DNA of 64,000 bases from Bacteroidota bacterium (GTDB lineage: Bacteria > Bacteroidota > Bacteroidia > B-17B0 > Aurantibacillaceae). How positions within the stretch are numbered: position 1 is the stretch's first letter; each line of letters begins with the position of its first letter. The stretch spans positions 124,001-188,000 of the forward strand of contig JAFDXR010000005.1 of the NCBI GenBank assembly GCA_018267825.1, read 5' to 3'. The translations under genes and the position numbers were made by a program. Under the pieces are notes generated by a model. It had not been told where the DNA came from and ran no database searches. It was given only the letters and a program-made list of their open reading frames with translations. Positions 723 through 18,910 of this stretch are shown piece after piece.

Positions 723-3700
723 TCACTCAATTATTTTTTTGACTATTTTATCTATTTCCCTCATTTCTGTTGAGAGATGTTTTTTTATTGCTACTCGTAT
801 TCGACCCAAATGTATTGCACTTAATTCCTGCTGTGGGGAATTGTCTTTTAAAAATTTAGCAGTTTCATTTTGCGCCCTTTGCCCAAGCTCAGCAAGCTTA
901 AGGTGTGTTTCAATGTTTTCATCAAATTTTGGGTAGTAAATATCTAAGATCTTCTTATGCACATCTCTGGCTCCAAACAAACCTTTTGTTTGAAAATCTT
1001 TCATCAACTCATTAGGAAGGCTAGAGTTAAGGATAGCTACTAAATAATTGGCTTCTTGACTTGAATCCGTAAAATATACATACCCTTTACTTTCAACTAA
1101 GAAGGGAAGTGCGAGTTTGCTTCTATCAACAACTGTCGCATTAGCATCTTTGGCTGACGCGTTGTACATCACCAAATATCTCGAATCTAGATTTTGTTCG
1201 GTCAATTTATTTTGCCAATTCAAATAATCTTCACTACTAATATTTTGATTTTTTTCAGTGCGATTACTTGCCCACACATTTTCCGTATTTTGAAACCACT
1301 TGGAGGCATTCAAAAACCCTTGCCTCATAAGATTTGTTGCGGAGTGCAATTTAATCTCTTGGCTACCCTGTTGGTTTTTTTTGATGGTTATGGGTAAGAC
1401 AACTAAATCAGGTTTGTATAAAGCAAAAGGTAATATGCTTTTCGAAAGAGCGGTCAGAAATAAAAATTGACTTTCTATCTTTCCGCTGAAATCTAAACCT
1501 TTCCAGGGGGCTTTTGCATCGGGTTGGATTGCATCAGAAGTTTTGATATTTATGGTTCTATCAATAAAATCAGGAGGAGTGTCCTGGGTCAGTTGCACAA
1601 AATAAAAAGTTCGGGGCACAATGGTGGCACCTTGTTTAAATAATTTTTTATAGGGGTTTATTTTTCCGCTTGTACTTGTTTTCTTATTTGAGAATGCGGA
1701 TGATTTGCCCTGTTTACTATAAAACCATTTGGTTTCCTGCTCGGATAATTTTGTTATGGCTTCTTTGTAGCTGCAATTATGTTCTGTTAGACGCCCACTA
1801 AACGATAACCCCTGCAAACCTGATGCAGGAATTTTTTTCGATACAGCCCTTGTATCTTTTTCCGTAAAAAGTACACAGCTAGGGATGCGGAATAATGGAG
1901 AAACATCATTTAAATCCCAGATATTCGTTAGCCTTACATTTTTTGCAACTCCGGAACGGGTATTTTCATGATGATCAGCACTAAAAAAACTACGTGGTAA
2001 AACAAAAGCCAGCTTCCCTTCTTTCTTTAAAAAGTAATTTGTACAGTAAACTAAAAATATTGCAGCAATTTCTAAATGGGGGTAGTTGGCAACTCGTGCA
2101 GGCTTTACATTATGAGTTTCAGCCAGGGCATTTAAAGTATCTTGATATTCCTCGTTGCGAATACTACTGTATGTAAACCAAGGCGGGTTGCCTACAATAT
2201 AGTCGAACTTGCCGGATAAAAAATATGGTTTGTAGAGGTTTTGCAAAATAAATTTCCAAATACTATCACGACCTTTTTCCTTTACTACTTTTAAACTTTC
2301 ATAAATTTTATAGAAGCTATCGTATATCAATGGGCTGAAGCCACCTTGCTTTAGATTATTTCTAATCACTTTTTCAAAAGCTTCCGGGGTTTCTTTTTGT
2401 TTGCCCATCGTTTGTTCTGCCAATTCTTCACATATATCAAGAGCATCATCAAAAAGTTTCATGTCTTCCAATATCTGAGAACTTAAAATAAGTTTCTCCT
2501 TATCAATCATCATTCTAAATGAGGTCCCAAATAAGTCCTGAACGCCATCAGGCGCGAGCAATGTGTTTGCCAATATTACATTTAAGTGAATTGGTTTTTT
2601 AGCATGTGTAATTTCTTTACCTAATGCCAACAGTACAGTCGTTTTCGCTATTTGTACACTCAGAGGATGAATGTCTATGCCGTAAATTGTGCCGTTTAAT
2701 TCATCCACTGTAATTTTCGGATGCAACTTTTTCAACCGGTGAATGGATGCTCTAAGGAAAGAGCCGCTCCCACAGGAAGGATCTAAGATTTTGTTACCTG
2801 GTTTAAAATCGAATTGGTTTACGACGCGTTCACATAGCCAGTCAGGCGTGTAATATTCTCCAAGGGCATGACGAGTGTCAAGATCTATCAATTCCTGATA
2901 TACACCCTTTAGAATATCTTCGTCAACGTTATTAAAGTCGAATGTGGAAATTTCCTGTGCGATTAAACGAAATACGATTTTGAGTTTTGAAAAGTTGCGA
3001 TCAGATTTTACCCAATGGAAGAAGTCATTATCTACAAAGTTTTGAATGTTGTATTTATCAAAAATACTTCCTTCCAAGATGGCATACATTTCTTTTTCAT
3101 CAATGTAATCATCATGGCTGACTACCGTGTATGCAAGCATTTTGGCAAACACACTTAAGTAAGTATGTATTACAAAACTGCTATCACTATCATTGTATGA
3201 ACCATAAGCAATGCTTAAAAACTTACGCCATTGCTCGTATGACACTTGCACTTCACCTTGTTTTTTTGCTTCACTAAATACATTTAAAATTTGCCTATAG
3301 CACTCAATAAATGTATTTGATTGATAACCAAATGCCTCTTCAATAGCTTTCAGAGAGGCATGTTGCTTCTCAGCTTTAAACAAATAACGATCAATCCAAT
3401 AATAGAAGTCGTCAGTATTCTTTTCGGTTAGAGTAAAGGACGCTGATTCTATTTCTGTTAACTTTAATTCATCTTCATTAAGACTATCCAGTTTATCAAG
3501 ACAACTAACATCTAGTGCGAAAATTTTCCAGTTAATAAAGTCGGAGGCAATAAGAGTATAATTGTATCCCTCACCGGAATTAAATTTGCCAAGTAAGTAA
3601 CCGGCCAATTGTTCTTTGGCATGGGATAATGATGTTTTAAGTGAATTTTCAAACTCAATAATTATCCTGTTGTAAAGCGTATCAGCACTTCCTTTATGCA

Positions 3701-3899
3701 TTTTATCTTTGCGAGGAATTTTAAAAATGGCTGTTTCAGCACCTGAACTAATTTTATCTATCAGTTGCGCTATATCAGCATTGTGAGCATAAAGTCTGTT
3801 TAATAAATCCTTGAAAGCTTCCTTTTTAGTAAGCTCCTTGTTGGCAGCTTTAACTTTTTTAAAGTAATCGAGTATATGTTGATCTTTGCTTTTTGACAT
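723..3899 (-). CDS. Eco57I-like N6-adenine DNA methyltransferase, possible type IIG enzyme
   Basis: About 1058 residues. The SAM motif DPSCGSGSF lies near residue 380 and the N6-adenine catalytic motif NPPW near residue 570, with the spacing of the N6_Mtase/Eco57I class. The C-terminal third looks like a target-recognition region. Residues about 60-130 resemble a PD-(D/E)xK-like N-terminus (SADTLYNRIIIEFENSL followed by a QLAGYL helix), but the usual E-x-K appears as E-F-E, so nuclease activity is doubtful. No separate restriction or specificity gene is present. The ATG at 3899 is preferred because AAGGA precedes it by five bases; an in-frame ATG at 3932 would add 11 residues. Composition is AT-rich, suggesting acquisition. 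It could be a single-chain restriction-modification enzyme, an orphan methylase or a BREX/DISARM-like remnant. Confidence 0.85.
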   Translation of the reverse strand: MSKSKDQHILDYFKKVKAANKELTKKEAFKDLLNRLYAHNADIAQLIDKISSGAETAIFKIPRKDKMHKGSADTLYNRIIIEFENSLKTSLSHAKEQLAGYLLGKFNSGEGYNYTLIASDFINWKIFALDVSCLDKLDSLNEDELKLTEIESASFTLTEKNTDDFYYWIDRYLFKAEKQHASLKAIEEAFGYQSNTFIECYRQILNVFSEAKKQGEVQVSYEQWRKFLSIAYGSYNDSDSSFVIHTYLSVFAKMLAYTVVSHDDYIDEKEMYAILEGSIFDKYNIQNFVDNDFFHWVKSDRNFSKLKIVFRLIAQEISTFDFNNVDEDILKGVYQELIDLDTRHALGEYYTPDWLCERVVNQFDFKPGNKILDPSCGSGSFLRASIHRLKKLHPKITVDELNGTIYGIDIHPLSVQIAKTTVLLALGKEITHAKKPIHLNVILANTLLAPDGVQDLFGTSFRMMIDKEKLILSSQILEDMKLFDDALDICEELAEQTMGKQKETPEAFEKVIRNNLKQGGFSPLIYDSFYKIYESLKVVKEKGRDSIWKFILQNLYKPYFLSGKFDYIVGNPPWFTYSSIRNEEYQDTLNALAETHNVKPARVANYPHLEIAAIFLVYCTNYFLKKEGKLAFVLPRSFFSADHHENTRSGVAKNVRLTNIWDLNDVSPLFRIPSCVLFTEKDTRAVSKKIPASGLQGLSFSGRLTEHNCSYKEAITKLSEQETKWFYSKQGKSSAFSNKKTSTSGKINPYKKLFKQGATIVPRTFYFVQLTQDTPPDFIDRTINIKTSDAIQPDAKAPWKGLDFSGKIESQFLFLTALSKSILPFALYKPDLVVLPITIKKNQQGSQEIKLHSATNLMRQGFLNASKWFQNTENVWASNRTEKNQNISSEDYLNWQNKLTEQNLDSRYLVMYNASAKDANATVVDRSKLALPFLVESKGYVYFTDSSQEANYLVAILNSSLPNELMKDFQTKGLFGARDVHKKILDIYYPKFDENIETHLKLAELGQRAQNETAKFLKDNSPQQELSAIHLGRIRVAIKKHLSTEMREIDKIVKKIIE

Positions 3900-4291
3900 G
3901 CTATTCCTTTTAGATTTATTTTCAAAGGCCAAGATTGCACCTGCCGGATGTCTGGTAACTCATTAAATTATTTATATAAGTCTTAATTGTCTAATATAAG
4001 ACTTATACTGGCATTAATTCATTACTATCTCAAAAAATATCCACATCTTAATTTTAGCAGCAAAGTCAGCCACGTTTTCTTGAAACGTTTGCATATGAGA
4101 GCTTCTAGGAGGATAATGATCATCAGAGGATGGATTTCTTTTGTTAGATTTAGATAAAGAAACTTATACTTCTAAATCAGATTTTTCCAAAAATAATAAG
4201 AAGCTAAAAGTAAAGTGATCTATATAAGTGGTAAGGGAAGAGAAATTCACATAAACTTTCAATTTTTTTAAATTTGACCAAAATAAAGTCG
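3900..4291. other. AT-rich intergenic region upstream of two divergent genes
   Basis: About 390 bases between the divergent methyltransferase and membrane-protein genes. The only clear structure is the perfect 11-bp inverted repeat at 3975-4007. No TAnnTTTG promoter, RNA gene or reading frame is recognisable. Confidence 0.5.
3975..4007. promoter_or_regulatory. perfect 11-bp inverted repeat, possible operator
   Basis: Arms TATAAGTCTTA (3975-3985) and TAAGACTTATA (3997-4007) are perfect reverse complements around an 11-base spacer. The element is 75-108 bases upstream of the methyltransferase start. No T-run follows, so it is not an obvious terminator. The 22-bp centre-to-centre spacing would suit a dimeric DNA-binding protein, for example a restriction-modification controller or the methyltransferase itself. 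That role is inference. Confidence 0.4.
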
Positions 4292-14252: not shown

Positions 14253-16217
14253 ATGAGTATGCAGTCTTATCCATTGTACAGCAACAGCCTCACGGCTTAT
14301 AAACGTTTCCTGACCCGCGAGGTAAAATGCGGTGATATAGGCATCGGTGGCAATAATCCCATCCGCGTGCAAAGTATGACCACTACAGACACCATGGATA
14401 CAGCCGCTACTGTGGCTCAAAGTATACGTATGATCGAAGCGGGCTGTGAACTGGTAAGAATTACAGCTCCCAGTATCAACGAAGCAAAGAACCTGGAGCT
14501 CATTAAAAAAGAATTAAAAGCGGCAGGATATAACACCCCGCTGATCGCTGATATACACTTCACTCCGAATGCCGCCGAATGGGCTGCCCGCATCATTGAA
14601 AAAGTACGCGTCAACCCGGGCAACTATGCCGACAAGAAAAAATTTGAACAGATCGATTATACCGACTCTGCCTACGAATCGGAGCTGGAAAGAATTCGTC
14701 AGCGTTTCACCCCGCTTGTGAAAATCTGCAAGGAATATGGAACAGCCATGCGTATAGGTACCAATCATGGCTCACTGAGCGACAGAATCCTGAGCCGTTA
14801 TGGCGACACACCACTGGGCATGGTGGAATCGGCTTTTGAGTTTCTCCGCATCTGCGAAGACAACAGCTACCACAACATCGTTCTCTCCATGAAAGCGAGC
14901 AACACACAGGTTATGGTACAGGCTTATCGCCTGCTGGTGCAAAAAATGATGGAAACAGGGCGCAATTATCCGCTGCATCTTGGTGTAACAGAGGCCGGTG
15001 ATGGCGAAGATGGTCGCATCAAATCGGCCGTGGGTATAGGAACCCTGCTTGAAGATGGCCTAGGAGATACCATCCGTGTTTCACTTACGGAAGATCCTGA
15101 GTTTGAAATTCCTGTGGCCAAAGCCCTTGTTGATCGCTACAATACCCGTGCACAGGAACAACAGGCCATAGAACCTATCCGGGAAGAAAATAACAAAATC
15201 ATATTACCCTACAATCCCTATGAATATGAACGCCGTGTAAGCCATCCCGTTCTGAACATAGGCGGGCATAACGTGCCGCGAATCCTTGCAGACTTCAGCG
15301 AACGTGGGGCCATCACCCCCGCATCGTTTTTTGCGGTAGGCTACAACTATTCGGTACCACTCGACAAATGGAATATCGGGGATATGGCCTGCGATTACAT
15401 TTACGTGGGCGAGCATGAATTAACTTTCGAAATTCCGGGAACACTTGGCATTATTCATAACTCCGAACAATGGAAAACCATTGCAAATCCTGTACGGCAA
15501 TATCCTTTATTTTGCGGCAGTGAATTCTTCAGCTCCGAAAAAATATCGGGAGATCTCAACTTTATAGCCATCACTTACGATTCGCTCAGCCCTGATTTTA
15601 TAAGCCGCATCCGGGAAGCCGAACATATTGTTTTGATCGCCGATACGTTCAACGCCCATGCCATGGCTGAAATCCGCCGCATATTCATAAAGCTGGCCGA
15701 AAACAACATCACCCATCCTGTTATCATCAAGCGTAACTACAAAGACCTGAATGAACAGGATTTTCAGTTATTTTCATCGACCGATGCCGGGGCGCTGCTG
15801 CTCGATGGACTGGGCGACGGCTTATGGATCAAGCAACAGAACTGTGTTTCACCACAGGTTTGTAATTCAACAGCCTTTGGCATTCTGCAGGCCACCCGTA
15901 CCCGAATCAGTAAAACAGAATATATTTCCTGCCCGAGTTGCGGGCGTACCCTTTTCGATCTGCAGGAAACCACGTCGCGAATCCGCAGCGTGACCGATCA
16001 TCTGAAAGGGATCAAAATCGGCATTATGGGCTGCATTGTAAACGGACCGGGCGAAATGGCTGATGCCGACTACGGTTATGTAGGTACAGGAACCGATAAA
16101 ATTTCGTTATACAAAGGGAAAGAGGTTGTGAAGAAAAATGTACCCGCAGGCAATGCCGTAAATGAGCTGATCGAACTCATCAAAGAACATGGCGATTGGA
16201 TTGAGAAACCGGCATAG
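14253..16217 (+). CDS. ispG: 4-hydroxy-3-methylbut-2-enyl diphosphate synthase IspG, long form
   Basis: 654 residues. IspG makes HMBPP from MEcPP in the MEP isoprenoid pathway and carries a 4Fe-4S cluster. The N-terminal TIM barrel (VQSMTTTDTMDTAATV, IADIHFTPNAA, GVTEAGDGEDGRIKSA) is followed by a large inserted domain (about 260-540) and the cluster domain with Cys at about 560 and 563 (CPSCGRTL) and 594 (MGCIVNGPGEMADADYG). The insert is normal for Bacteroidota, Chlamydiae and plant enzymes, in contrast to the roughly 370-residue E. coli form. Divergent from crcB. Confidence 0.96.
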   Translation: MSMQSYPLYSNSLTAYKRFLTREVKCGDIGIGGNNPIRVQSMTTTDTMDTAATVAQSIRMIEAGCELVRITAPSINEAKNLELIKKELKAAGYNTPLIADIHFTPNAAEWAARIIEKVRVNPGNYADKKKFEQIDYTDSAYESELERIRQRFTPLVKICKEYGTAMRIGTNHGSLSDRILSRYGDTPLGMVESAFEFLRICEDNSYHNIVLSMKASNTQVMVQAYRLLVQKMMETGRNYPLHLGVTEAGDGEDGRIKSAVGIGTLLEDGLGDTIRVSLTEDPEFEIPVAKALVDRYNTRAQEQQAIEPIREENNKIILPYNPYEYERRVSHPVLNIGGHNVPRILADFSERGAITPASFFAVGYNYSVPLDKWNIGDMACDYIYVGEHELTFEIPGTLGIIHNSEQWKTIANPVRQYPLFCGSEFFSSEKISGDLNFIAITYDSLSPDFISRIREAEHIVLIADTFNAHAMAEIRRIFIKLAENNITHPVIIKRNYKDLNEQDFQLFSSTDAGALLLDGLGDGLWIKQQNCVSPQVCNSTAFGILQATRTRISKTEYISCPSCGRTLFDLQETTSRIRSVTDHLKGIKIGIMGCIVNGPGEMADADYGYVGTGTDKISLYKGKEVVKKNVPAGNAVNELIELIKEHGDWIEKPA

Positions 16218-16614: not shown

Positions 16615-16653
16615 TAGGTATAAATACCTATTTTGATAGGTAGAAACACCTAT
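16615..16653. promoter_or_regulatory. four half-sites in exact 11-bp phase, probable operator
   Basis: TAGGT at 16615, ACCTA at 16626, TAGGT at 16637 and ACCTA at 16648: alternating orientation, each start exactly 11 bases after the last. This makes two inverted repeats (arms TAGGTAT/ATACCTA, 2-base gap, and ATAGGT/ACCTAT, 6-base gap) one two-turn distance apart. The block ends about 40 bases before the first ATG of the response regulator frame. The arrangement is that of a cooperative dimer-of-dimers binding site; autoregulation by the LuxR-type regulator is the simplest reading. Confidence 0.6.
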
Positions 16654-16726
16654 TTATTTGGAAGTGTATTTCATTTTTTTCTATATTGTAAAAATGGCTG
16701 ATATAAACACAGGGGGCGATACGCTT

Positions 16727-17377
16727 ATGGATTCTAAAATAAAAATTGCTGTTGTTGATGATCAGCATCTGGTCAGAGAAGGCATTATTTCTCTTCTGAA
16801 AGAATACGAGGGTTTCGAGATTATTCTGGAAGCCAGTAACGGTCATGAGTTCGTTGAGCTTCTTCAGGATAGAAAACCGCAGGTTGTATTGCTTGATTAT
16901 GAAATGCCTGTTATGGACGGCAATGAAACCATACAGGTTCTGCAAAAACAATACCCCGATATAAAAATCATTGTCATCAGTGGCTATGACACAGAAGAAC
17001 TCATGATTCATCTCATGGAGAGAGGTGTTAATGCATTTCTGCAGAAAGACCGTCATGCCAATGAATTGATCGATGCTATTCATGTGGTGATGAATAACAA
17101 CTACTATTTCAACAACCGGATCTCCATGGTAATGCTGCGCCGCCTGGTGAACATGAAAAAACACAGTGCTGTTTCTGACCCTATTTCTCTCACTGAGCGT
17201 GAAATTGAAGTTGCAAAACTTGTCTGCCAGGAATTGAGCAACAAGGAGATTGCCGAAAAGCTTTTTTTAAGTCCCCGTACCATCGACAGTTACCGTGAAA
17301 AGCTTATGCAGAAAATCGGCGCCAGAAACACAGCCGGTATTGTATTATACGCCATTAAACACAACCTATTGGACTGA
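16727..17377 (+). CDS. orphan NarL/FixJ-type response regulator
   Basis: 216 residues from ATG 16727; an in-frame ATG at 16694 would add 11. Receiver domain: acidic pair VVDDQHLVREG, phospho-acceptor Asp in VVLLDYEMPVMDG, Ser in VISGYD and Lys in LQKDRHANEL. C-terminal LuxR HTH: LTEREIEVAKLVCQELSNK and LSPRTIDSYREKLMQKI. All key residues are present, so it should be phosphorylated and bind DNA. No histidine kinase lies in the window. The last 12 bases overlap the end of the convergent acyltransferase gene. Confidence 0.92.
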   Translation: MDSKIKIAVVDDQHLVREGIISLLKEYEGFEIILEASNGHEFVELLQDRKPQVVLLDYEMPVMDGNETIQVLQKQYPDIKIIVISGYDTEELMIHLMERGVNAFLQKDRHANELIDAIHVVMNNNYYFNNRISMVMLRRLVNMKKHSAVSDPISLTEREIEVAKLVCQELSNKEIAEKLFLSPRTIDSYREKLMQKIGARNTAGIVLYAIKHNLLD

Positions 17378-18472: not shown

Positions 18473-18910
18473 CTATAAATTGGGATTAATGGTTCTGAAC
18501 CATTCAAGTGCCTGTTCTTCGTTTGCAAAAACCTTTGCCGGATATGGGAAGCGGCGAAGTTTATAATAAAAATCAACCACAATACGTGTTGGAAGATCAT
18601 GAACAATAACAGCTTCTGCAACACAGGTGGGCTTTCTGCCAAGTTCTTTATAGAAATCATATTCACGCGCTTCCTGTGTAATATCCTGGCGCTGACCGGT
18701 GACCACTATTGTAAAATAGGGATTATCTCCCGTCATAGCAACATTGGTTTGTGATAGTTCAATCACATCCTCCACCTGCAGGACAACGTCATCCATGAAA
18801 CGGAATGCGATCACATTTCCTTGGTACAACGTCGCAGTTGCAATCCGAAGTTCCTGTGATCTGATTTCTTTCAGATCTAATGTTCTATTTTTTTCCTTTT
18901 CTGGTGTCAT
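18473..18910 (-). CDS. SpoIIAA-like/DUF7793-type protein
   Basis: 145 residues. No enzymatic motif. The order of blocks (a beta strand LQVEDVIELS, then PYFTIVVTGQRQDITQEARE, then a Cys/Ala-rich strand AEAVIVHDLPTRIVVDFYY, then PYPAKVFANEEQALEWF) matches the STAS/SpoIIAA-like fold seen in DUF7793 proteins. A distant paralogue lies at 31396. Its first 26 bases overlap the end of the upstream hexapeptide-transferase gene, so the two are co-transcribed. Function unknown. Confidence 0.6.
   Translation of the reverse strand: MTPEKEKNRTLDLKEIRSQELRIATATLYQGNVIAFRFMDDVVLQVEDVIELSQTNVAMTGDNPYFTIVVTGQRQDITQEAREYDFYKELGRKPTCVAEAVIVHDLPTRIVVDFYYKLRRFPYPAKVFANEEQALEWFRTINPNL

Follow-up and report, generated by a model that had tools for sequence, protein, structure and literature searches.

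When a response regulator gene has a regularly spaced operator in front of it and no kinase beside it, which protein is likely to bind the operator, and which kinase is likely to control that protein? The question arises in a stretch of 64,000 nucleotides (the window) from the 4.82-Mb genome of a Bacteroidota bacterium (G000), in which the putative operator lies between a GcpE/IspG gene (stop at 16217) and a gene encoding a protein with Response_reg and GerE domains. An earlier note on this DNA listed four half-sites starting at 16615, 16626, 16637 and 16648, and argued that such regularity is unlikely by chance and that the 11-bp steps indicate a binding site. The four starts are as listed, and the span begins at 16615 but ends at 16652 rather than 16653. 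The layout is TAGGTATAAATACCTA-TTTTGA-TAGGTAGAAACACCTA, and consists of two 16-bp palindromes (TAGGT-N6-ACCTA) at a step of 22 bp. Features of the locus and of a related operon are listed in Table 1.

Table 1. Features of the window locus and of the paralogous operon. Positions are those of the window unless a contig is named.
Feature	Position	Strand	Basis
Distal operator palindrome TAGGTATAAATACCTA	16615..16630	.	Sequence, window scan, recurrence in genome
Proximal operator palindrome TAGGTAGAAACACCTA	16637..16652	.	Sequence, window scan; 22 bp downstream of the distal palindrome
Possible -33 element TTTG	16657..16660	+	Sequence; consensus position inferred
Possible -7 element TATATTGT	16682..16689	+	Sequence; consensus from PMC9723704
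NarL-type response regulator gene, locally orphan	16727..17377	+	Sequence, ORFs, Pfam
Four-gene operon, encoding in order a 103-aa protein, a 216-aa membrane protein, a HisKA_3 kinase and a regulator	about C2:120886-123350		

With up to three mismatches allowed, the four-half-site pattern matches once in the window and never in 100 dinucleotide shuffles of it, which bears out the argument against chance. Elsewhere in the genome, it matches in one place, C2:120699, with two mismatches (up to three were allowed). The distal 16-mer, as such or reverse-complemented, is found again at other places in the genome. The genome scan that had been suggested did define a regulon, by way of the single palindrome: TAGGTRWWWWYACCTA has 18 exact copies in this genome, versus 0 for its reversed control and an expectation of 0.14 under an i.i.d. 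base-composition model. A looser pattern, TAGGTNNNNNNACCTA with one mismatch, shows no excess (135 versus 189 for the control), and the A+T-rich centre and exact arms therefore matter. Three identical one-mismatch sites, TGGGTATAATTACCTA, lie 4-5 kb apart on contig C30 of this genome (74423, 78234 and 83297), and may mark copies of a repeated gene, every one with its own operator.

Among 87 genomes of the family, counts of TAGGTRWWWWYACCTA are bimodal: at least 4 copies are present in 10 genomes, one in 11 and none in 66, while the control pattern reaches at most 2 per genome. The ten high-count genomes (G000, G030, G034, G062, G066, G067, G069, G070, G077 and G084) carry 4 to 27 copies each. 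The analysis of neighborhoods covered almost every exact site listed for these genomes; omitted were a few sites at the ends of contigs and a few others that were not listed. The sites covered form 90 groups, of which 84 lie outside predicted ORFs of at least 60 aa. Two palindromes within 60 bp of each other occur in 36 of the 90 groups, most often at a spacing of 24 bp (24 pairs), with other pairs at 23 (6), 22 (2), 25 (1) and 46-47 bp (3). The 22-bp spacing of the window is inside this range, but is not the rule. The recurring unit is the palindrome, not an 11-bp ladder of four half-sites, and exact 11-bp phasing is ruled out as a functional signal by exact-palindrome pairs that are 22-25 bp apart, mostly 24, in the ten genomes. 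Thus, of the earlier binding-site claim, the operator itself is very probable, but the exact ladder is not a conserved feature. In G337, G393 and G455, TAGGTA palindromes form pairs at 14 or 32-33 bp rather than at 22-25, which perhaps reflects a different regulator or binding mode. In a wider collection of genome contigs, matches to the single exact 16-mer are, by our own estimate, about as frequent as chance predicts for that volume; these matches were used only for loci L122 and L129, which hold the operon described next.

The match at C2:120699 lies about 2 kb upstream of the gene at C2:122715, which encodes the closest paralogue of the window regulator in its own genome (50%) and is the last gene of a four-gene operon (Table 1). 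A DUF3606 gene diverges on the other side of the operator. The operon kinase (~270 aa) is NarX/UhpB-like, with HisKA_3 and HATPase_c domains and no sensor domain detected by Pfam, and the paralogous regulator has Response_reg and GerE domains by Pfam. Neither the 103-aa nor the 216-aa protein matches a Pfam or NCBIfam family above cut-off. Of the 395 genomes sampled from the class, 55 encode the 103-aa protein, for which the predicted structure (mean pLDDT 79.8) gave no PDB match at E <0.001.

Of the ten high-count genomes, nine hold the operon; in eight, it is preceded by TAGGTA-type palindromes. G030 has two operons, and the palindromes before them have changed arms. In G034, whose genome is 75% complete, a related regulator is encoded near a site, and the 103-aa gene was not seen beside this regulator. 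Across the class, the 103-aa gene occurs in 4 of 6 genomes with at least five TAGGTA sites, versus 51 of 389 others (p 0.004). For the two exceptions, G455 and G337, genome completeness is 60% and 89%, and sites form pairs there at distances of 14, 32 or 33 bp. At three loci (L207, L202 and L208), three to four palindromes, some of them degenerate, stand in a row upstream of the operon at steps of ~23-25 bp.

The window protein likewise contains Response_reg (5.9e-26) and GerE (4.1e-17) domains by Pfam, in agreement with its earlier description as a LuxR-type regulator, and its alignment shows the conserved acidic residues and the sequence VVLLDYEMP. Its gene has alternative in-frame ATG starts at 16694 and 16727. 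Pfam scans of nine other proteins of the window, one encoded at 723-3932 and eight in the vicinity of the regulator, revealed no kinase. The statement that no kinase is nearby therefore holds locally, for these nine proteins, but not genome-wide, because the operon of the closest paralogue includes a HisKA_3 kinase. The kinase for the window regulator, absent beside its gene, is probably encoded elsewhere in the genome. The gene after the regulator is convergent and encodes an acyltransferase. A DUF7793 protein is encoded close to the regulator (18473-18910, minus strand); this family is a recurrent operator target in relatives, and no operator was found before the window's DUF7793 gene. The protein at 723-3932 (minus strand) is a large N6-methylase/Eco57I-type protein by Pfam, and type IIG restriction-modification models match among the window genes.

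The window and operon regulators both carry RT(I/V)D in what is predicted to be their recognition helix. The window paralogue therefore probably uses the same operator and the same kinase as the operon, which we regard as the least certain step of our proposal. In a tree, the window regulator falls within a set of operon regulators that come from two families, a weakly supported placement (84/23). We also considered a code relating a recognition-helix residue to the operator arms, with D in the TAGGTA class and E or N in L192, L194, L206 and L315. We claim no such code, as D also occurs in other classes (L195, L200, L318 and L319), and E occurs in L129 with both arm types.

The position of the palindrome relative to promoter elements suggests how it might act. 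When 123 oriented promoters were aligned on the gene-proximal palindrome, TAnnTTTG (at most one mismatch) peaked at +23, where it occurs in 20 promoters; the average over the remaining offsets is 1.8 (p 3e-15). With a gene on one side only, 13 of 51 promoters have the +23 box. TTG is in excess directly after the palindrome, and the sites share no flanks except these promoter elements at fixed distance. In Flavobacterium, TAnnTTTG occupies -12 to -5, according to PMC9723704, and the palindrome would therefore span approximately -51 to -36 and adjoin the -33 box, a geometry that suggests an activator. The best box at the window locus, TATATTGT, lies 29 bp past the operator, versus the usual 23. 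It has two mismatches to TAnnTTTG and fits TAnnTTGY, a related -7 form given in PMC9723704; transcription from it would start near 16694.

Operators upstream of the operon differ between lineages. The 103-aa gene was found at 37 distinct loci. At 20 of them, GTR-N4-YAC palindromes lie at most 350 bp upstream, with 32 palindromes in total versus 0.47 expected by shuffling; the other 17 operon-type loci have none within this distance. The unbiased count omits L122 and L129, which were found through the operator itself, and gives 18 of 35 loci and 29 palindromes versus about 0.45 expected. Arm forms include TAGGTA, AGAGTA, ACCGTA, ATCCGTA, AGGGTA, GGGGTA and CCCGTA, as well as others. If the regulator binds the operator of its own operon, then the same variant is expected to be in use genome-wide. 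This is observed in G300, a genome of another family, whose operon has the form GGGTA...TACCC: 18 GGGTRWWWWYACCC sites are present versus 1 for the control, the commonest step between palindromes is 22 bp (5 of 8), and one target encodes, as in the window, a NarL-type regulator that stands alone. TAGGTA sites number 0 in G300, and the G300 form numbers 0 in the TAGGTA-type genome G070. Operon-operator and genome-wide variants are thus coupled in one genome, G300. By comparison, GAGTR...YACTC has 0 genome-wide occurrences in G072, whose own operon copies have a middle C that lies outside the pattern; CCGTR...YACGG has 4 in G031 (control 3), two of which are operon sites, and 2 in G016 (control 1), one of which is an operon site. 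Because variants in these three genomes are confined to the operon or little above control, broad regulons seem to be lineage-specific. G390 has its two operon sites only, and G274 has one GGGTA site.

The genes near sites in the ten genomes are diverse, and 52 of 67 target families were seen once. Families that recur in several genomes are the operon with DUF3606, DUF7793/SpoIIAA-like proteins, single receivers, PAS/sensor proteins, two uncharacterized families (of 160 aa and 80 aa), small membrane proteins (which we take to resemble PMP3) and large secreted proteins. PADLOC identifies the defense-related targets TmtA, PDC-S60, HEC-05, HEC-06 and PD-Lambda-5. At PADLOC E <1e-30, 5 of 63 target representatives are hits, versus at most 2 of 54 genes of the window, a small and housekeeping-rich control (one-sided p 0.29); enrichment in defense genes is therefore not claimed. 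Type IX sorting tails occur in 2 of 63 scanned targets. Some targets in G000 have eCIS_core, GH18 or tail-collar domains, and it is possible that operator sites control a contractile injection system. At one locus (L043, 3100-9308; G000:C32 near 178440 and 183807), sites flank genes with eCIS_core/endonuclease and GH18 domains. The targets further include a Pvc16_N protein.

We consider it likely that the two palindromes together serve as a tandem operator to which dimers of a NarL-type regulator bind, that the operon and the window paralogue belong to one regulatory family, and that activation is driven by the kinase. Operators, their genome-wide distribution, promoter geometry, operon conservation and, in G300, the coupled operator variants are the sequence evidence behind this proposal. 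Under the proposed mechanism, the membrane parts would receive a signal, and the kinase, which may be gated by the membrane and 103-aa proteins, would phosphorylate the operon regulator and perhaps also the window paralogue. Phosphorylated dimers would then bind TAGGTA-N4-TACCTA, one per palindrome, with two dimers side by side at pairs. Bound upstream of the -33 box, they would recruit polymerase to the adjacent -33/-7 promoter, and so switch on the operon (a positive feedback), the window regulator and scattered accessory genes. Binding, phosphotransfer, activation, the nature of the signal, and positive feed-forward or auto-control at the window gene are predicted components of this scheme. 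Several observations count against it: the -7 box lies exactly at +23 in just 20 of the 123 promoters, the window's own box is imperfect and at +29, variant sites are not enriched genome-wide in G072, G031 and G016, 17 of the 37 loci lack such a palindrome, the 103-aa gene is missing from G455 and G337 despite their five or more sites, and none was seen beside the G034 regulator.

The palindrome could instead be the operator of a different, unlinked factor, for which the operon and the window regulator are mere targets. G455 and G337, with at least five sites yet no 103-aa gene, are consistent with such a factor, as are targets that are themselves regulators, namely receiver proteins and a LytTR protein. 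We nonetheless judge it improbable, because the operon keeps its operator across families while the arms change, with genome-wide sites that follow in G300, as predicted for a self-regulating operon, and because a NarL-type regulator would fit both the core and the heptamer. A still less probable explanation, to which we assign little weight, is the one implied by the earlier note, in which the window regulator alone autoregulates and the paralogous operon is irrelevant. The operator is immediately upstream of the window gene, and the recognition-helix residues common to both regulators would suit this explanation too. However, the regulon exists in nine other genomes of the family, the site-linked regulators are operon members in eight, there is no kinase beside the window regulator, and this regulator resembles operon regulators from other genomes (up to 52%) about as closely as it does the paralogue in its own genome (50%). 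That the palindromic, many-copy sites arose by chance or are a nonregulatory repeat (a mobile-element end, iteron or RNA hairpin) is already contradicted, and has a negligible probability, given 18 sites versus 0.14 expected, no common flanks beyond the promoter elements, 0 matches to the longer pattern in viral contigs, and a site sequence that changes with the operon lineage.

Our preferred proposal, a kinase-driven NarL-type system, is of a kind already known. New are the operator, an operon with two uncharacterized families, and the finding that operator and regulon diverge together. We found no report of the operator, operon or regulon in literature that included subscription papers only in part, and the regulon, which extends across a group of little-studied bacteria, is apparently undescribed. 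Our impression is that, outside hybrid systems and T9SS control, little seems to be known about the operators of response regulators in Bacteroidota. A broader interpretation, which we offer tentatively and think rather doubtful as a whole, is an undescribed Bacteroidota two-component system in which the two uncharacterized families are likely sensor parts, dispersed accessory "conflict" genes are under its command through a single type of operator, and operator and regulator are rewired together by lineage. If true, such genes would include anti-phage systems (for example, PD-Lambda-5, GmrSD, TmtA and PDC-S60), contractile-injection components, surface proteins and further sensors. Since the operator, promoter geometry, candidate regulator, kinase and 90 site groups all come from sequence, the regulon is directly testable. 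The arm changes between lineages, followed by the sites in one case, provide a natural series for studying how regulator and regulon specificity change together, and the system gives a handle on two uncharacterized protein families that travel with a kinase.

Among known systems, NarX/NarL and NarQ/NarP of E. coli, which respond to nitrate, likewise pair a HisKA_3 kinase with a Response_reg-GerE regulator. The kinase here differs in being short and without a Pfam sensor domain, and two proteins without a family precede it. NarL and NarP operators consist of inward-facing heptamers in a 7-2-7 arrangement; here, the heptamers of one palindrome face outward across a 4-bp gap, and outer operator bases vary between lineages. 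Two of the window half-sites match the NarL/NarP heptamer TACYYMT, as given in PMC4886647, at 7 of 7 positions, and the other two match at 6 of 7; TACCTAT fits. The operon paralogue scores below the NCBIfam equivalog cut-offs for NarL (103.2 versus 250 bits) and NarP (99.6 versus 343). UhpA/UhpB and MctS/MctR are among the best NCBIfam relatives of the operon kinase and regulator, with MctS/MctR scores far under the curated cut-offs (95.8 versus 700 for MctS and 143.5 versus 300 for MctR). PorX/PorY with sigma-P, which act in type IX secretion, are also an example of two-component control in Bacteroidota. PorX has an output architecture different from the NarL/GerE type, to which the regulator described here belongs. 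At the fha promoter, dimers of the NarL-family regulator BvgA are arranged side by side on repeats of ~22 bp. The spacing here is 22-25 bp, with a strict palindrome as the unit, in another phylum and with other partners.
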